A stretch of 27,621 bases of DNA from a virus. The stretch is from the IMG/VR virus record IMGVR_UViG_3300002137_000339, positions 1-27,621 of that record; one strand, given 5' to 3'. A program made the translations under genes and the position numbers. Positions 3,564 to 19,077 of the stretch are shown here, one piece after another. Within the stretch, counting starts at the first letter, position 1. Every line of letters begins with the position of its first letter. The notes beneath the pieces are model-generated. The model ran no database searches. It was not told the DNA's origin and was given only the letters and a program-made list of their open reading frames with translations.

Positions 3564-4133
3564 CTATAGGGGAGATCCCATAAGTGTTTTTGTATGACTT
3601 GTCCCTCCAATTTTACGATCGTAGGTTCCATCATCATTTACTGTAAACTCTTTACCTTTTAATACTCTTCTAATTGTAACCTCATCTGTAACAATAGGAA
3701 TACCTGCTTCAACAAATATATCTTTTATTCTTCCGGATACTTCAATATAGAATCCCGGTTTTTTTAACTTATCGATTTTGTAAGTTAACATTTTACGTTT
3801 AGCAGGAGATGTTCCATCATGTCCTGATGCTACAAATTTAGTACCTGTTTGATCTTTCGGTTTAGCTACATTTACAACATCTATTCCGGGATCGTCGTCA
3901 AAGTCTATTACTTCGTACTCGTTATCTCCTTCAGATCCAGTTACATCATCTGGTGATTTATAATTGGAGTGGCCTCCAATATACTCATATGCAATTTTAA
4001 TTAGTCCAAAAATATCATCTTTATAATCTTCTAACTCTTGTTGGGAAAGGGTTACCCATTTGCCTTTAGGTAGTTCTGCCTCTAAGAGTAGTGGATTGTT
4101 AGATAAGTATTTTTTTAAATCGAAATTATCCAT
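3564..4133 (-). CDS. MDNFDLKKYL-leader protein 1 (189 aa, unknown function)
   Basis: 189 residues. The first ten, MDNFDLKKYL, are identical to those of the next two genes upstream, while the bodies are unrelated. After the leader comes LLLEAE (residues 15-20), with an L-x-E site at 16-18. The body has the features of a folded globular domain: IAYEYIGGHSNYKSPDDV, an acidic patch IDFDDDPGID, FVASGHDGTSPAKR and a C-terminal KTLMGSPL. It gives a faint impression of the acetyltransferase-like phage proteins that carry IGGH and GHDG segments, but I cannot assign it. The leader may be a targeting or maturation signal like the capsid-targeting sequence of T4 internal proteins. Last gene in its unit, one base after the preceding stop. 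Confidence 0.75.
   Translation of the reverse strand: MDNFDLKKYLSNNPLLLEAELPKGKWVTLSQQELEDYKDDIFGLIKIAYEYIGGHSNYKSPDDVTGSEGDNEYEVIDFDDDPGIDVVNVAKPKDQTGTKFVASGHDGTSPAKRKMLTYKIDKLKKPGFYIEVSGRIKDIFVEAGIPIVTDEVTIRRVLKGKEFTVNDDGTYDRKIGGTSHTKTLMGSPL
4101..4133 (-). repeat. leader repeat copy 1 (encodes MDNFDLKKYL)
   Basis: 33 nt starting at the ATG, nearly identical to 4438-4470 and 4852-4884 (ATGGATAATTTCGATTTAAA, then AAAATACTTA). Unlike copies 2 and 3, identity does not extend upstream of the start codon. Confidence 0.85.
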
Positions 4134-4134
4134 A

Positions 4135-4470
4135 TTATTTTAATTTCCGTTCATTTAAAGTACTTCTATATAATTCAAGGGCTCTTTTTAAAGTATCTTT
4201 TACTTCTTCTTTATCAAGTTTATGGAATGATGATTGGTTGTTTACATCAAGACGGGTTAATTGTAATTCGTTATCTAAACCAACTCCTTGATATCCCTGC
4301 TCTTTAGCTACAGTTGCTCTTGTAAATCTATTTAAAGAAGAAATTAGATCTCTATGCAAGTTATATGGATTTTCTATATCTTTTAATTTGATAAGTTGAT
4401 ACATAGATCCTTTATCTTCTTCATTTAACTTATTCTTAGCTAAGTATTTTTTTAAATCGAAGTTATCCAT
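4135..4470 (-). CDS. MDNFDLKKYL-leader protein 2 (111 aa, unknown function)
   Basis: 111 residues starting MDNFDLKKYLAKNKLNEEDK, i.e. the shared leader followed by an L-N-E site at residues 15-17. The rest is charged and helical (LIKLKDIENPYNLHRDLISS, RATVAKEQGYQGVGLDNELQ, KEEVKDTLKRALELYRSTLN) with no recognised domain and no cysteine. The gene is one base from its upstream and downstream neighbours' boundaries, so all three leader genes are translated from one mRNA. The small size, charge and common N-terminus are what would be expected of proteins packaged inside a prohead and trimmed there, but this is only a hypothesis. Confidence 0.75.
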   Translation of the reverse strand: MDNFDLKKYLAKNKLNEEDKGSMYQLIKLKDIENPYNLHRDLISSLNRFTRATVAKEQGYQGVGLDNELQLTRLDVNNQSSFHKLDKEEVKDTLKRALELYRSTLNERKLK

Positions 4471-4485
4471 TTATGTATTTGTTAT
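4438..4485 (-). repeat. leader repeat copy 2, including 15 nt upstream of the ATG
   Basis: 48 nt, 47 of 48 identical to 4852-4899. It contains ATAACAAATACATAA directly before the ATG and then the codons for MDNFDLKKYLA. The upstream part also encodes the C-terminal residues and stop of the 137-residue protein, so the repeat crosses a gene boundary. Confidence 0.85.
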
Positions 4486-4884
4486 TTTTTTAATTTTATC
4501 TTTCCACCATTCGGTGATGTAAGGAATAAACTTATCTTTTCCAGATTGTAACATCCACCATTGACTGGAACCTGTAAAGTTATGATTCTTAACAGCCTTA
4601 CCGGAAGGATCCATTAATGTAGTTGTTATACCATTTAACATAGGATTTTCTTCACTAACGGTATCACTGTATCCTTTTACTCCTGGGTCTCTAAAGTAGT
4701 AGGTTGTGGTGATTTTTAATTTATATCCGTTATCAAGATTTATTACATCAATAGTATCAAAATTATGATTAATAACATCCGTGCCTACTTCTACATCACG
4801 TTGGTTTATTCTCTCACTTGAATACTGCTCTTCTTTTAATAACTTTCCTTCAGCTAAGTATTTTTTTAAATCGAAATTATCCAT
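4471..4884 (-). CDS. MDNFDLKKYL-leader protein 3 (137 aa, unknown function)
   Basis: 137 residues starting MDNFDLKKYLAEGKLLKEEQ: shared leader, an L-A-E site at 10-12 and an L-K-E site at 16-18. The body is predicted mostly beta (VINLDNGYKLKITTTYYFRD, GITTTLMDPSGK, FTGSSQWWMLQSGKDKF) and ends in a basic helix (WWKDKIKKITNT). No family recognised. The start overlaps the 3' end of the esterase gene by 8 nt. The C-terminal codons, stop and following start are the duplicated 48-nt segment also found at 4852-4899, so this gene and its downstream neighbour appear to have arisen by insertion or replacement at a common junction. Confidence 0.75.
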   Translation of the reverse strand: MDNFDLKKYLAEGKLLKEEQYSSERINQRDVEVGTDVINHNFDTIDVINLDNGYKLKITTTYYFRDPGVKGYSDTVSEENPMLNGITTTLMDPSGKAVKNHNFTGSSQWWMLQSGKDKFIPYITEWWKDKIKKITNT

Positions 4885-4899
4885 TTATGTATTTGTTAT
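4852..4899 (-). repeat. leader repeat copy 3, including 15 nt upstream of the ATG
   Basis: 47 of 48 nt identical to 4438-4485. Here the 15 nt before the ATG encode the last residues of the esterase (in the phrase NIYNKYING) in a different reading frame from copy 2. The nucleotide identity across two different reading frames shows that the segment moved as DNA and is not conserved only for its protein. Confidence 0.85.
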
Positions 4900-5362
4900 A
4901 TATGTTAATAAATATGTCAAAAGGTGTTTTATGTGCCATTCCTTCAACTTCCTCTATTATAAACCTAGTATCACCTTGAAGCATTTCTTTAGTCCGTTCA
5001 GGATCTATAACTTTATCCTCTTTTCCTAATACTACGATTTGACGTTCATGAAATGAAGTATCAAAACTTAAAATAAAGGTATCTAAATCCGGTTCAAAAC
5101 TACGACTATGGAGTGCTGGGTTTAATAAGATAGCAGGTAAGTTAAATGCTTTAGCAAATTCATGAGCAACATATCCTCCCATACTACTACCGATAAGTAA
5201 ATCCGGTTTGAATTCTATTATTATGTTATAAACTTTACTATGTAAATCTTCATCACGGTAGTCCATAGCAGGAGCATAAACACAAGCTTGACCTGCTAGA
5301 AAACCAACTTTTTCCCCACCTTGCTTACTTTCAAGGCCGTGGAGGTATAATATCCTTTTCAT
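4877..5362 (-). CDS. YqiA/UPF0227-like alpha/beta-hydrolase (esterase)
   Basis: 161 residues with a compact alpha/beta-hydrolase fold. N-terminal strand and oxyanion region ILYLHGLESKQG; nucleophile elbow GSSMGGY (Ser at about residue 60); a following ILLNPAL segment typical of the YqiA group; acid residue in GKEDKVIDP; and a His near the end in GMAHKTPF. A complete Ser-Asp-His triad is therefore visible. Relatives hydrolyse short acyl esters in the cytoplasm; the natural substrate is unknown. Its stop overlaps the start of the first leader-peptide gene by 8 nt, and its ATG follows the 82-residue gene by one base. What a phage gains from it is unclear. Confidence 0.85.
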   Translation of the reverse strand: MKRILYLHGLESKQGGEKVGFLAGQACVYAPAMDYRDEDLHSKVYNIIIEFKPDLLIGSSMGGYVAHEFAKAFNLPAILLNPALHSRSFEPDLDTFILSFDTSFHERQIVVLGKEDKVIDPERTKEMLQGDTRFIIEEVEGMAHKTPFDIFINIYNKYING

Positions 5363-9861: not shown

Positions 9862-11244
9862 TTAATAGACTTTACCTCCCATACCGTCGTCTGCCTGGAT
9901 AGAGTTGGGTGGTTTATATCCAGGTCTAGCGTGCATGTAGTCCTTAGCTATATCCATGTTTAGTTGAGGTATTTCTTCTTCTACAATCTGCTCCTCGGAG
10001 GTTGTAGCTTCGTACTCTTTAGCTGCTTGCATTAGTGGTTCATTCAGGAGGGGGAATTCCATATTCTCGTACCATGTATCGAACAAATCATCTTCTTCTT
10101 CTAAGTCACTTCCGTATATAATTTCTTCTAATCCCTCATCCCAATCTTCAATTTCATCTAACCCATCATTTATTGTCCCTTCTAAATCGGATAAATCATC
10201 TTCTTCTGGTTTGATTTGTTCAAAAGCAAAGTTAGCGGCTATTACTAGAGCAATCGCTAATGGATCAAACACAAATATAATAATTAAGAGTAAAACATTA
10301 ATGATTTTATTCATAGGAATACCTGTTAACTCGGAAAGGAATTTAAGAGGTCCTAGCTCACTTGTCAACTCGTTATTAGTAGATACTTCTACTATTTCTG
10401 TTTCATATGTAAATAATTTTTCATTTAGATCATCCACTCGGGTATTGATTGAAGTCTGACGTTCAATCGCTTGATCCAGTTGTTTTTCTAATGCTCTACG
10501 GGTAGCTGATGAGGTTGAGGTCATTACCTGTCCTTCTGAATTTGTATATGTTATAACATTATTGGATAGTCCATTTCTTAAATCTGTTACTGATTTGTTA
10601 ATACTTTCCTTTTCTGTGTTGAATACGTTTAATTGCTCTTTAATATTATCCCTTTTAGTTTCCACTAACGTTATTTGAGCATCAATTGTTCCCGATACTG
10701 ATGCTGTTTTTTGATAGGCAGCAGATAGGAACCCGTAAATACCCATACTTGTAATTAGTATTAATACAAAACAAGCTACTGATAGATAGTATTTAAGGAA
10801 TTTGGGTAGTGTTTTTCTATACTGGTATAATAGTGAAGCTATTACTAGTTTAGCTACCTCTAAGGAAGCAGCCATTACATTATCTCTTTTAGTTTCTACT
10901 AACGTTATTTGAGCATCAATTGTTCCCGATACTGATGCTGTTTTTTGATAGGCAGCAGATAGGAACCCGTAAATACCCATACTTGTAATTAGTATTAATA
11001 CAAAACAAGCTACTGATAGATAGTATTTAAGGAATTTGGGTAGTGTTTTTCTATACTGGTATAATAGTGAAGCTATTACTAGTTTAGCTACCTCTAAGGA
11101 AGCAGCCATTATTATGACAGCAAGTGCGGCTCCGGCAAAGAGTTTGCTTAGTCCTGAGACTGAGTAGAATGCTGCGGAAGCGGATACTGAAAGTGCTGAT
11201 ACTGCTATAAGGGAGGGCAGTAAGTACTGTTGGATCTTTCTCAT
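9862..11244 (-). CDS. integral membrane protein with internal 78-residue tandem duplication (start moved to 11244)
   Basis: 460 residues from the Met at 11244 (MRKIQQYLLPSLIAVSALSV); a Met at 11265 lies upstream of the -7 box of the promoter at 11252-11283 and is excluded. N-terminal hydrophobic segments, then a unit running from MAASLEVAKLVIASLLYQYR through FVLILITSMGIYGFLSAAY to VETKRDN that occurs twice in direct succession. After it come a coiled coil (roughly IKEQLNVFNTEKESINKS onward), another membrane segment (INVLLLIIIFVFDPLAIALV) and a long acidic cytoplasmic-type tail (GLDEIEDWDEGLEEI). Without the duplication it would be 382 residues. No function recognised; the layout suggests an inner-membrane scaffold. 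Single-gene unit. Confidence 0.8.
   Translation of the reverse strand: MRKIQQYLLPSLIAVSALSVSASAAFYSVSGLSKLFAGAALAVIIMAASLEVAKLVIASLLYQYRKTLPKFLKYYLSVACFVLILITSMGIYGFLSAAYQKTASVSGTIDAQITLVETKRDNVMAASLEVAKLVIASLLYQYRKTLPKFLKYYLSVACFVLILITSMGIYGFLSAAYQKTASVSGTIDAQITLVETKRDNIKEQLNVFNTEKESINKSVTDLRNGLSNNVITYTNSEGQVMTSTSSATRRALEKQLDQAIERQTSINTRVDDLNEKLFTYETEIVEVSTNNELTSELGPLKFLSELTGIPMNKIINVLLLIIIFVFDPLAIALVIAANFAFEQIKPEEDDLSDLEGTINDGLDEIEDWDEGLEEIIYGSDLEEEDDLFDTWYENMEFPLLNEPLMQAAKEYEATTSEEQIVEEEIPQLNMDIAKDYMHARPGYKPPNSIQADDGMGGKVY
10645..11112 (-). repeat. tandem duplication, 2 x 234 bp, in frame
   Basis: Copies 10645-10878 and 10879-11112 differ at only about three positions (10651 c vs 10885 t; 10663 c vs 10897 t; and the last base). 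234 is a multiple of three, so the reading frame is kept and 78 residues are repeated. The near identity points to a very recent duplication, or to an assembly error. Confidence 0.92.
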
Positions 11245-11251
11245 ACTATTT

Positions 11252-11283
11252 GAAATATAGTACAAAAATACGGAGAGTGCAAC
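11252..11283 (-). promoter_or_regulatory. promoter, GTTGC-N19-TATATTTC, for the duplicated membrane-protein gene
   Basis: GTTGC at 11283-11279, 19 nt, TATATT at 11259-11254 on the minus strand. The ATG at 11244 is 7 nt after the box, so the mRNA has almost no leader. This position decides the start codon of the gene. Confidence 0.62.
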
Positions 11284-16122: not shown

Positions 16123-19077
16123 TTAATCCTCTTTTATAATTCTTTTATTAAATATTTTATCATGGTGTTTGATAGATAGGAAGTAAATACTGTTTGGCAA
16201 TGATGATATATCAAGTACCCTCTCTTTGGAATTTTCAATAAGTACCTTACCTGTAAAGTCATATAAGGTATATGTAATATTTAGGTTAGTTTTAATATTT
16301 AAAAAATCTTTAGTCGGGTTTGGATAGACGATAATACTGTTAAATCCAATTTCATCGATATTGAGAAGGTTATTTGCAATCGCACAATAATCATACAATG
16401 CTTGACAATCAGGATCCCAGGAGTTAGTACAGCAGTAGTTATCAACATCGATTACCCAAGCATAGCAAGGATCGTTTAGCCAATATGGATTTCCTGGGCC
16501 GTCAATACATCCTGCATCATATAAACAGCTTGTAGAATCTGGTACGTTTGCGTCTGGATTGTAGTTGTAAGCTGTTGGGTCTGTGCATCCGACTATTGGG
16601 GGTATACATGTTCCGTTGTCGGTATTTGCATTCGGATCATAATTTAGGGCAGTTGAATCAGTGCAGCCGTAGATGGTAGGAATACATGGGTTTGAAAAGT
16701 CGGTAGCTGAAACTTGGTTTGTATTTGCTAGTGGGTTATAGTTAAATGAACCAGGATCCATACATCCGTAAATATAAGGGATGCAGCTTCCGTTATCAGT
16801 GTTAGCTAATGGGTTATAATTCCACATTGTTGAATCAATACAACCATATACTTTGGGGATACATGAACCGTTTTCTGTGTTTGCAGATGGATTATAATTA
16901 AAGGAAGTTGGGTCTGTACAACCGTAAATTACAGGGATACATGAACTATCATCCGTATTTGCTAGTGGATTATAATTAAATGAGGTTGAGTCCGTACAAC
17001 CGTAAATATAAGGTATACAAGTACCTGATGTGTTGGCGGTTGGGTCATAATTCCACATCGTTGAATCAGTACATCCTACTTTAATTGCTATACATGTATC
17101 AGGAGTATTTGCGTTTGGATTATAGTTAAATGATAATGGATTCATACATCCGTAAATGTAAGGGATACAATTCCCATCGTTTGTATTTGCTAGTGAATCG
17201 TAATTAAATGAAGTTGAATCTGTACATCCGAATACTTTTTCAATGCATACATCTCCGAATGTAGGTTGTGAGTCTACTCTTTGAATTATAGGGAATTGTA
17301 ATGTAGTTGCTCCCCAATATAGGACATCTACAATAGTATCACCCTCTGGTCCATATAAAGTATATGCTACTTGAGCGATTGAGTTTTGAGATTGAGTCGT
17401 TGTAAACAAATATAAATCAATTGGTTCGTATATGTTTAAAGGTACATCAAATGTTTGATTATAACCATCATTAGGACCCATTTTATATTGAGGAGATAAG
17501 TTACTACCTTGTTTGATACCTAACCAAGTACCACCCCAACCATTAGCAGCACCATCGTAAATTTTTAGAGTGTAGTTACCAGTCATTATTTCGCTGGTGT
17601 TAGCGGTATCTATATAATTAAATGCTGATGTATCAATACATCCTACTATTCGTGGAGCTCCACAAGAGCCTGTGTCTATTGTAGCACTTGGGTTATATGT
17701 GGTTGAGAACGGATTCATACACCCATATACATCTGAACTACCAGATGAACATATACCACCAGTACTAAACTGAGGTGAGGTGAATTGGTATCCAAAGTTT
17801 CCATTTGGGATAGTATCGGATAATGCCCATAAAAGATTACCTGAACAATCATATACTTTTAAGTCCCCATCTACTGAACCGCCATAAAGAGTACCATTTA
17901 AACCATCACCATAACTATCGCTAATTACAATATCTATTAGTACGTTTGTATCAACACACATATAATGTGAGATAGGTACACCTTGGGGTTTGCCTGAGAA
18001 TGTACCTTGGGATGCAGTATAAACTGCTCCGTTGTCATCGTAAACAATCCAACTCGATTCCCCGCCATAGGTATCAGGGGTGAATTGTACATCTATATAA
18101 GTTTGGTTGGAAGAACAATTAAGAGATGCGGCAGGGTCACCGGTACATAGCCCATCACTAACAGTAGCCCATGGGTTGAACTCATTTGAAGTACTATCGG
18201 TACATCCGATAATGTCTGCACAATCTAAACATTTTTCCCAACAATTAGTGTCTAATATTACAGTGTCTCCGTTTACAATTAAATTTCTATTAGTAAATCC
18301 AAAAGCATCTAAAAGGAAACACGTTGCATAAGGATTACCACCGCCTGTAATGTTAGGAGGTAGCTCTTGGTCAGCCCAGTTGTCAACTGAGTATTTCCAT
18401 AACCATCCTGGATTGTTTAAGATATCAATAGTACCAGTCCAAACACCATCACCATCGGAGTCCGATAATGAATCTGCAATACCACTCCAACTATTAAATT
18501 GACCACTTACGTAAACTTGAGAGAAGGTATCATTGTATGAATTCATATCAACTGCAAAAGTTACAGGATATTTACATTGACCATTATTAATGTTAGCGGC
18601 GGTGTTATATGATGAAGATGTTGAATCCATACAACCGGCAACTGGTGGTGGTTGAGATAAAAGATTAACAACAGTATCGCATGAATAGCCCCCATAAGTA
18701 CTTGTAAAAAATCCAATATCAGATGGTGATAGGTCTATAAGTGTTCCTTGAGTGTAGTTCCGTAACTTTACAAAAGGAGCACTACCTTGATTATCATACC
18801 ATCTACTTACATTACTTGTGAGTGATATCTTTATATCACCTGTATCAGTTGATGAGAAATTGTACCTATAAGTGTTTGCATTAGTTGTCGAATAACTCGA
18901 ATAGTATAAAGTATCAGTACCTTGTTCAACTAAAATAGATTGGTCGTTTGAATAGATGTTACCTGACGTGAATACGTATCTACCGAATTCTACTTCTAAT
19001 TCAAACCAACTTGTATTTTGTGCAGATGCTACAAACGGTAACATATATAGCAGCAAATTAATCAAATACTTTTTCAT
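16123..19077 (-). CDS. large secreted T9SS cargo protein with Cys-rich tandem repeats, 984 aa
   Basis: Signal peptide MKKYLINLLLYMLPFVASAQ. The N-terminal part is beta-rich; about 170-285 resembles a starch/glycogen-binding (CBM20/48-like) domain (VYVSGQFNSWSG ... DSDGDGVWTGTI). Then a module with SSWIVYDDNG and DSYGDGLNG, another with YTLKIYDGAANGWGG, and about thirteen copies of a 24-residue repeat GCTDSTSFNYNPLANTDDSS-C, nine of them consecutive at about 620-860. The last 75 or so residues form a T9SS type A sorting domain: IIVYPNPTKDFLNIK, YTLYDFTGKVLIE, DISSLPNSIYFLSI, KHHDKIFNKRIIK. It should cross the inner membrane by Sec and be attached to, or released at, the host surface by T9SS. 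First gene of the late operon. Such proteins are normal for free-living Bacteroidota, unusual for a phage. Confidence 0.92.
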   Translation of the reverse strand: MKKYLINLLLYMLPFVASAQNTSWFELEVEFGRYVFTSGNIYSNDQSILVEQGTDTLYYSSYSTTNANTYRYNFSSTDTGDIKISLTSNVSRWYDNQGSAPFVKLRNYTQGTLIDLSPSDIGFFTSTYGGYSCDTVVNLLSQPPPVAGCMDSTSSSYNTAANINNGQCKYPVTFAVDMNSYNDTFSQVYVSGQFNSWSGIADSLSDSDGDGVWTGTIDILNNPGWLWKYSVDNWADQELPPNITGGGNPYATCFLLDAFGFTNRNLIVNGDTVILDTNCWEKCLDCADIIGCTDSTSNEFNPWATVSDGLCTGDPAASLNCSSNQTYIDVQFTPDTYGGESSWIVYDDNGAVYTASQGTFSGKPQGVPISHYMCVDTNVLIDIVISDSYGDGLNGTLYGGSVDGDLKVYDCSGNLLWALSDTIPNGNFGYQFTSPQFSTGGICSSGSSDVYGCMNPFSTTYNPSATIDTGSCGAPRIVGCIDTSAFNYIDTANTSEIMTGNYTLKIYDGAANGWGGTWLGIKQGSNLSPQYKMGPNDGYNQTFDVPLNIYEPIDLYLFTTTQSQNSIAQVAYTLYGPEGDTIVDVLYWGATTLQFPIIQRVDSQPTFGDVCIEKVFGCTDSTSFNYDSLANTNDGNCIPYIYGCMNPLSFNYNPNANTPDTCIAIKVGCTDSTMWNYDPTANTSGTCIPYIYGCTDSTSFNYNPLANTDDSSCIPVIYGCTDPTSFNYNPSANTENGSCIPKVYGCIDSTMWNYNPLANTDNGSCIPYIYGCMDPGSFNYNPLANTNQVSATDFSNPCIPTIYGCTDSTALNYDPNANTDNGTCIPPIVGCTDPTAYNYNPDANVPDSTSCLYDAGCIDGPGNPYWLNDPCYAWVIDVDNYCCTNSWDPDCQALYDYCAIANNLLNIDEIGFNSIIVYPNPTKDFLNIKTNLNITYTLYDFTGKVLIENSKERVLDISSLPNSIYFLSIKHHDKIFNKRIIKED
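16505..17232 (-). repeat. tandem coding repeats, period about 72-75 bp
   Basis: Nine consecutive units encode GC(T/M/I)D-x4-NYNP-x-AN-x3-SCIP-x-(I/V)(Y/V). They diverge at the nucleotide level but keep two Cys per unit and the NY(N/D)P core; one unit carries an insertion (NTNQVSATDFSNPC). Boundaries are approximate. Further more divergent copies lie at about 17.6, 18.2 and 18.6 kb. Confidence 0.88.

Follow-up and report, generated by a model that had tools for sequence, protein, structure and literature searches.

Interchangeable N-terminal leaders ending in (L/I)-x-E on unrelated proteins of aquatic phages, very probably capsid-targeting sequences of the T4 type

Background

The closest described counterpart of the leaders reported here is the capsid-targeting sequence (CTS) of phage T4, in which residues 4 and 7 serve targeting and residues 8 and 10 processing, the protease gp21 cleaving after L/I-x-E; in the internal protein IPIII, the first ten residues suffice for packaging (PMC9026906). 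The products of T4 genes 67, 68 and 22 are prohead core proteins (roles: PMC9026906), and the same three genes flank gene 21 in the T4 record, where IPII and IPIII start with MKTYQEFIAE and gp22 with MLKEQLIAE, a layout common to MDNFDLKKYLAE. In the literature searched, the leader sequence treated here occurred in no paper found, and no such leader was described for phages of Bacteroidota.

We analysed a complete 27.6-kb IMG/VR record (27,621 nt, IMGVR_UViG_3300002137_000339), hereafter the window, which is a piece of a larger phage. Its genes (QueC/D/E/F, DnaB, RecA, SSB and a polymerase) resemble the set of Flavobacterium phage immuto (MW353175), and no close DNA match to the window was found among GenBank phages.

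Results

Three adjacent ORFs on the minus strand of the window, at 3564-4133, 4135-4470 and 4471-4884 (189, 111 and 137 aa), start with MDNFDLKKYL. The 189-aa protein combines the leader MDNFDLKKYLSNNPLLLE (residues 1-18; 4080..4133), over which model confidence falls and which has a predicted cut after LLE (residues 16-18), with a GNAT-fold body (about residues 22-189). The 111-aa protein carries the leader MDNFDLKKYLAKNKLNE (residues 1-17; 4420..4470), with a predicted cut after LNE (residues 15-17), on a body without assigned family, and the 137-aa protein the leader MDNFDLKKYLAEGKLLKE (residues 1-18; 4831..4884) on a probably beta-rich body. This last leader holds two L-x-E sites, LKE at residues 16-18 and LAE at 10-12, the latter absent from the initial annotation; E12 is missing from the other two, which depend on the second site. 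The initial annotation had described three dissimilar bodies behind ten shared residues and an L-x-E at residues 15-18, and the ORF translations bear this out in all three proteins: when the window was searched with the 137-aa protein, its residues 1-33 alone gave a match, to the 111-aa protein, and body clustering placed the three bodies in three separate clusters. Judged from the sequences, an identity over ten residues between proteins that are otherwise unrelated, three in number, far exceeds chance. None of the three bodies matched a Pfam or PHROG family, and the 137-aa body had no relative among GenBank phages. The 12 bases preceding the start codon are identical in two of the three genes, so that a recent cassette duplication is likely.

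Two further features of the window were recorded. At 10645-11111, a 234-bp tandem duplication (99%) within the ORF 9862-11265 repeats a 78-residue membrane segment and is either real or an assembly artefact. At 16123-19077, a 984-aa protein with repeated GC(T/M)D..NYNP units ends in a C-terminal Por_Secre_tail domain, by which proteins of the host are sorted for type IX secretion, here on a phage protein.

Further MDNFDLKKYL starts, which the initial annotation had proposed to look for, proved numerous and not local to the window. A degenerate DNA pattern for M-x-N-F-D-L-K-K-F/Y-L located the leader in at least 120 IMG/VR stretches, single records holding as many as five exact matches, and the reversed control pattern gave no match in 25 records. 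Among bacterial and archaeal genomes (85,000 genomes, about 257 Gb) the pattern matched six times, and only two of these matches, both on 14-kb MAG contigs, were true gene starts with a matching leader. The phages with the leader are T4-type, derive from aquatic samples and are only distantly related to T4. Immuto (host LMO8) is a cultured carrier; its four leader genes occupy 1803-2318, 103806-104354, 117631-118632 and 118632-118931, the last of which begins MENFDLKKFL; a 20-aa short-form leader query had no match in GenBank phages. Across 83 genes, MDNFDLKKYL is written in 37 different DNA spellings, and therefore it is the peptide, not the DNA, that is conserved by selection.

The position of the L-x-E site was analysed in 128 distinct leader proteins of at least 70 residues from viral loci, a set in which homologous rows are counted although non-independent. 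E12 was present in 120 of the 128, and a second (L/I)-x-E ending at residues 15-28 in 111, whereas shuffling of residues 13-28 (2000 trials) gave 37.8 on average and 54 at most; about 12% had no clear second (L/I/M)-x-E site. L-x-E peaked at residues 12, 17/18, 23/24 and 28 and occurred elsewhere about once per position. Leaders of three lengths thus have the same kind of end, exemplified by YLAEGKLLKE, FLVENKLTTNSKLLKE and FLKESKALENLNPSFKSLNE. The aromatic residues F4 and Y/F9 are partly fixed by the search pattern; F also occurs in MSF.. leaders, which were collected without a pattern that requires an aromatic, and short leader classes such as MKLTKILLE are without aromatics. A bare L-x-E pattern was dropped as a cargo detector because ordinary enzymes, RNR for instance, match it too.

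The leader behaves as a swappable module. Among homologues of the 189-aa body, gathered with a pattern set that included a body motif, all 52 distinct N-termini terminate in (L/I)-x-E just ahead of the body, while control windows along the body of this family contain (L/I)-x-E in 0 to 10 of 58. These N-termini belong to several classes (MDNFDLKKYLAEGRLFNE, MSFDLKKYLAEGKLFE, MSFNLHGWFKKQYLRE, MIKLVDLLNE, MKLTKILLE and MRAREFITE). Similarly, the leader of a 145-aa body (CPxxTQ) differs between phages, being MDNFDLKKYLAEGKLYE in one set of them and either MINLLDILSE or MKLSKLISE in another; leaders are also swapped in a further body family, which has MKKSELVKLIKEE in immuto. In Actinomycetia phage DSL-LC01 (L356), the gene immediately ahead of that for the capsid maturation protease encodes a homologue of the cysteine-rich 145-aa body. 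An unbiased comparison of N-termini inside single genomes recovered the leader above a null of random segments, with signal peptides, recovered too, as positive control; it found class A and, independently of it, MENNFDxxxWxxxFLKE, MINLLDILxE, MKKSELxxIIKE and MKKQILSEQFxRMQxLAGIITE. Several classes can occur on one body, and one class occurs on scores of bodies.

Leaders were also found inside longer proteins. The 343-aa product of L083 comprises three parts with leader sequence between them, and internal leaders divide proteins of L076, L053, L106 and L069 into two or three parts. In G004 and L043, one ORF fuses two genes that are adjacent in immuto and are both leader genes. In three cases (L076/L288, L069/L364 and L144/L072), the internal site falls where, in a homologue that stands alone, the leader gives way to the body.

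The bodies are mostly small, 84% of them are net acidic, and those of the 128 proteins form 95 clusters, 77 of them singletons. For the 189-aa protein, an AlphaFold model (pLDDT 92; leader 57-72) shows a GNAT fold that begins near residue 22; it aligned with RimI 5isv (VIA Z 11.2, 134 aligned, 3.7 A), and structural rows mostly begin at residues 22-24. The model thus presents the body as a GNAT fold that folds apart from the leader. Pfam GNAT did not match this body, and its family has an invariant GHD after the matching strand in place of the acetyl-CoA loop Q/R-x-x-G-x-G/A. Viral structure matches sharing the fold include annotations as 'internal virion protein A', with weak E near 0.01. A UPF0227 (alpha/beta-hydrolase, esterase) gene without leader (4877..5362, minus strand) lies directly upstream of the leader genes and near the GNAT-fold gene; an esterase also adjoins the homologue in Tenacibaculum phage pT24 (L165), and the GNAT part is spanned by the 406-aa model of a viral 'Esterase D'. 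The 137-aa body, folded without relatives, reached pLDDT 68, and Foldseek matched its model to nothing at E below 0.05, wherefore no fold is claimed for it.

The initial annotation had reasoned that a leader borne by many cytoplasmic enzymes would speak against packaging. This is not the pattern observed: the only confident enzyme-like domain among the 128 proteins is that of a sigma factor (regions 2 and 4; L093:8509-9105) with the MDNFDLKKYL leader, which we regard, speculatively, as a candidate for a head-packaged, injected transcription factor. Weak Pfam matches, such as Tad5 (E 0.008, one of 128), were at chance level. Neither the window bodies nor the leader bodies examined matched known anti-restriction families; the anti-restriction role raised in the initial annotation is thereby neither supported nor excluded, and nearness to queuosine-type genes proves nothing in this respect.

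No head genes were found within the window, and since it is a fragment, the prohead protease that the initial annotation had suggested searching for was seen in relatives only. Peptidase_S77 (gp21) together with gp23 was present in six of the first eleven records, including all those of at least 160 kb; the six are five near-complete genomes, immuto among them, and one 102-kb record. S77 was further detected in 11 of 14 additional long records, and the T4 gp21-type protease in 10 of 11 exact-leader records of at least 120 kb. Its N-terminus retains LLIE, exactly or with slight variation (MSQLLIET, MKQVLIET, MNKQLLIET), compared with MNEPQLLIET in T4 gp21, a site that agrees with the gp21 logo according to the T4 review (PMC9026906).

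Eighteen leader loci, all picked for having a leader, extend as far as the protease; in 12 of them a leader gene shares its strand at a distance of 16-72 bp, near the slot of the T4 core genes 67/68. When 11 other genomes were chosen by their protease, a leader-like gene was directly adjacent in only two (short class, MKLSELILE and MKIADLILE), and the notion of a leader gene beside every protease was rejected, as it fails in nine of these 11. Genes with hydrophobic-(L/I)-x-E N-termini were over-represented 2.9-fold at distances of up to 16 kb from the protease (60/165 vs 120/954; five genomes, Fisher P = 2e-12). Most leader genes are located away from the head module, many of them among replication genes (primase, RecA/SSB, GroEL and Que genes).

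A 280-aa leader protein of L065 has the C-terminus RMxxLAGI, as in gp22-like scaffold. RMQKLAGI is C-terminal in gp22-like scaffolds (gene 204 in immuto); other proteins of immuto (L123:36676 and L125:25061; immuto 111675 and 25061) have it within MKKQILSEQFRRMQKLAGIITE, their N-terminal leader, and it might constitute a second core-binding tag. The sequence HFIAEAR, with the residues of the T4 IPII cleavage junction FIAE-AR, occurs in the product of immuto gene 200 (L123:48579), which lies immediately before the protease (gene 201).

Discussion

The leader is very probably a capsid-targeting sequence of T4-type phages that is cleaved by the prohead protease. The analogy to T4 internal proteins drawn in the initial annotation is strongly supported, as far as the leader is concerned, by the discrete L-x-E peaks, the protease and gp23 of the relatives, the leader genes beside that protease, leader swapping and internal copies at domain boundaries, whereas core binding, cleavage, location in the virion and the proposed injection are what we infer from T4; no virion proteomics was found for leader phages, immuto included. 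By this analogy, the leader, as a short helix with aromatics at 4 and 9, would bind a gp22-type scaffold core during prohead building and thereby draw the body into the head. A gp21-type prohead protease would then cut behind the glutamate of (L/I)-x-E, either at residue 12, at the second site (17/18, 23/24 or 28) or at both. Released within the capsid, the body would be packaged with the DNA and probably enter the next host along with it. In fused genes, the internal leader sites would let the protease separate the parts. Delivery of the bodies into the next host appears likely on the T4 model.

The most serious alternative accepts the leader as an address to the virion or core, and holds that its proteins are head-assembly factors which are degraded or expelled like T4 gp67/gp68 and never delivered. 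Leader genes adjoining protease and scaffold genes, the RMxxLAGI tail of the L065 protein and the acidity of the bodies, as in core proteins, are all consistent with such a role; 95 body clusters, a GNAT fold and a sigma factor would nonetheless be odd for scaffold parts, and most leader genes are distant from the head module, so that we consider it unlikely. It is quite improbable that the leader instead docks its protein to something else in the phage or the host (the membrane, a site of replication or a chaperone), with an incidental L-x-E. The many leader genes among those for primase, RecA/SSB, GroEL and Que would suit a tag of this kind, but the L-x-E recurs at discrete places across leaders of different sequence and length and also at internal boundaries, and co-occurrence with S77 is near complete in long records. 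That the shared N-terminus is a DNA or RNA element (a start context, translation signal or recombination hot spot) with the peptide as by-product would agree with the 12 bases shared upstream of two window genes and with the help that a conserved 5' end would give to body exchange, but synonymous variation (37 spellings for the same ten residues) and copies of the peptide retained in the interior of fused ORFs, which require no start there, leave it hardly any credence.

Taking the leader, then, as a capsid-targeting sequence, we lean slightly toward a broader proposal, namely that aquatic T4-type phages, those of Flavobacterium included, use a general modular packaging code of interchangeable (L/I)-x-E leaders, in which any gene may acquire a leader and so become an effector packaged in the head and injected, with cleavable polyproteins and a packaged sigma factor among the outcomes. 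If this holds true, the injected proteome, perhaps about 20 cargo proteins per phage, could be read from sequence. As a tag, the leader would also lend itself to bringing foreign proteins into Flavobacterium phage heads. T4-type phages are common in aquatic environments, and the leader would make their head-carried proteins searchable by sequence; some 95 clusters of hypothetical proteins, including the GNAT-fold protein and the sigma factor, thereby become putative delivered effectors.

Several known systems invite comparison. Dar of phage P1 and, in T4, IPI (PMC9026906) are packaged in the head and delivered against host defence, whereas the leader bodies match no known anti-restriction family. 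In the giant phage SPN3US and phiKZ relatives, which are a different phage group from the leader phages, the prohead protease is described as stripping N-terminal propeptides from packaged and ejected head proteins (PMC5694885, PMC10052503). The closest likeness is to the T4 CTS of IPI, IPII, IPIII and Alt: in both, a short N-terminal peptide with an (L/I)-x-E end is carried by unrelated small proteins, with an aromatic residue at position 4 and a second one before the hydrophobic-x-E site, and a gp21-family protease is present in the same phages. The bodies are not filed under the IPI-IPIII family, because they are unrelated to it and mostly acidic, in contrast to the basic T4 internal proteins. 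What is new with respect to T4 is another and longer leader sequence (17-28 residues), often with two L-x-E sites, which comes in interchangeable classes, heads about 95 clusters of bodies, and recurs internally in fused proteins as the seam of putative polyproteins.
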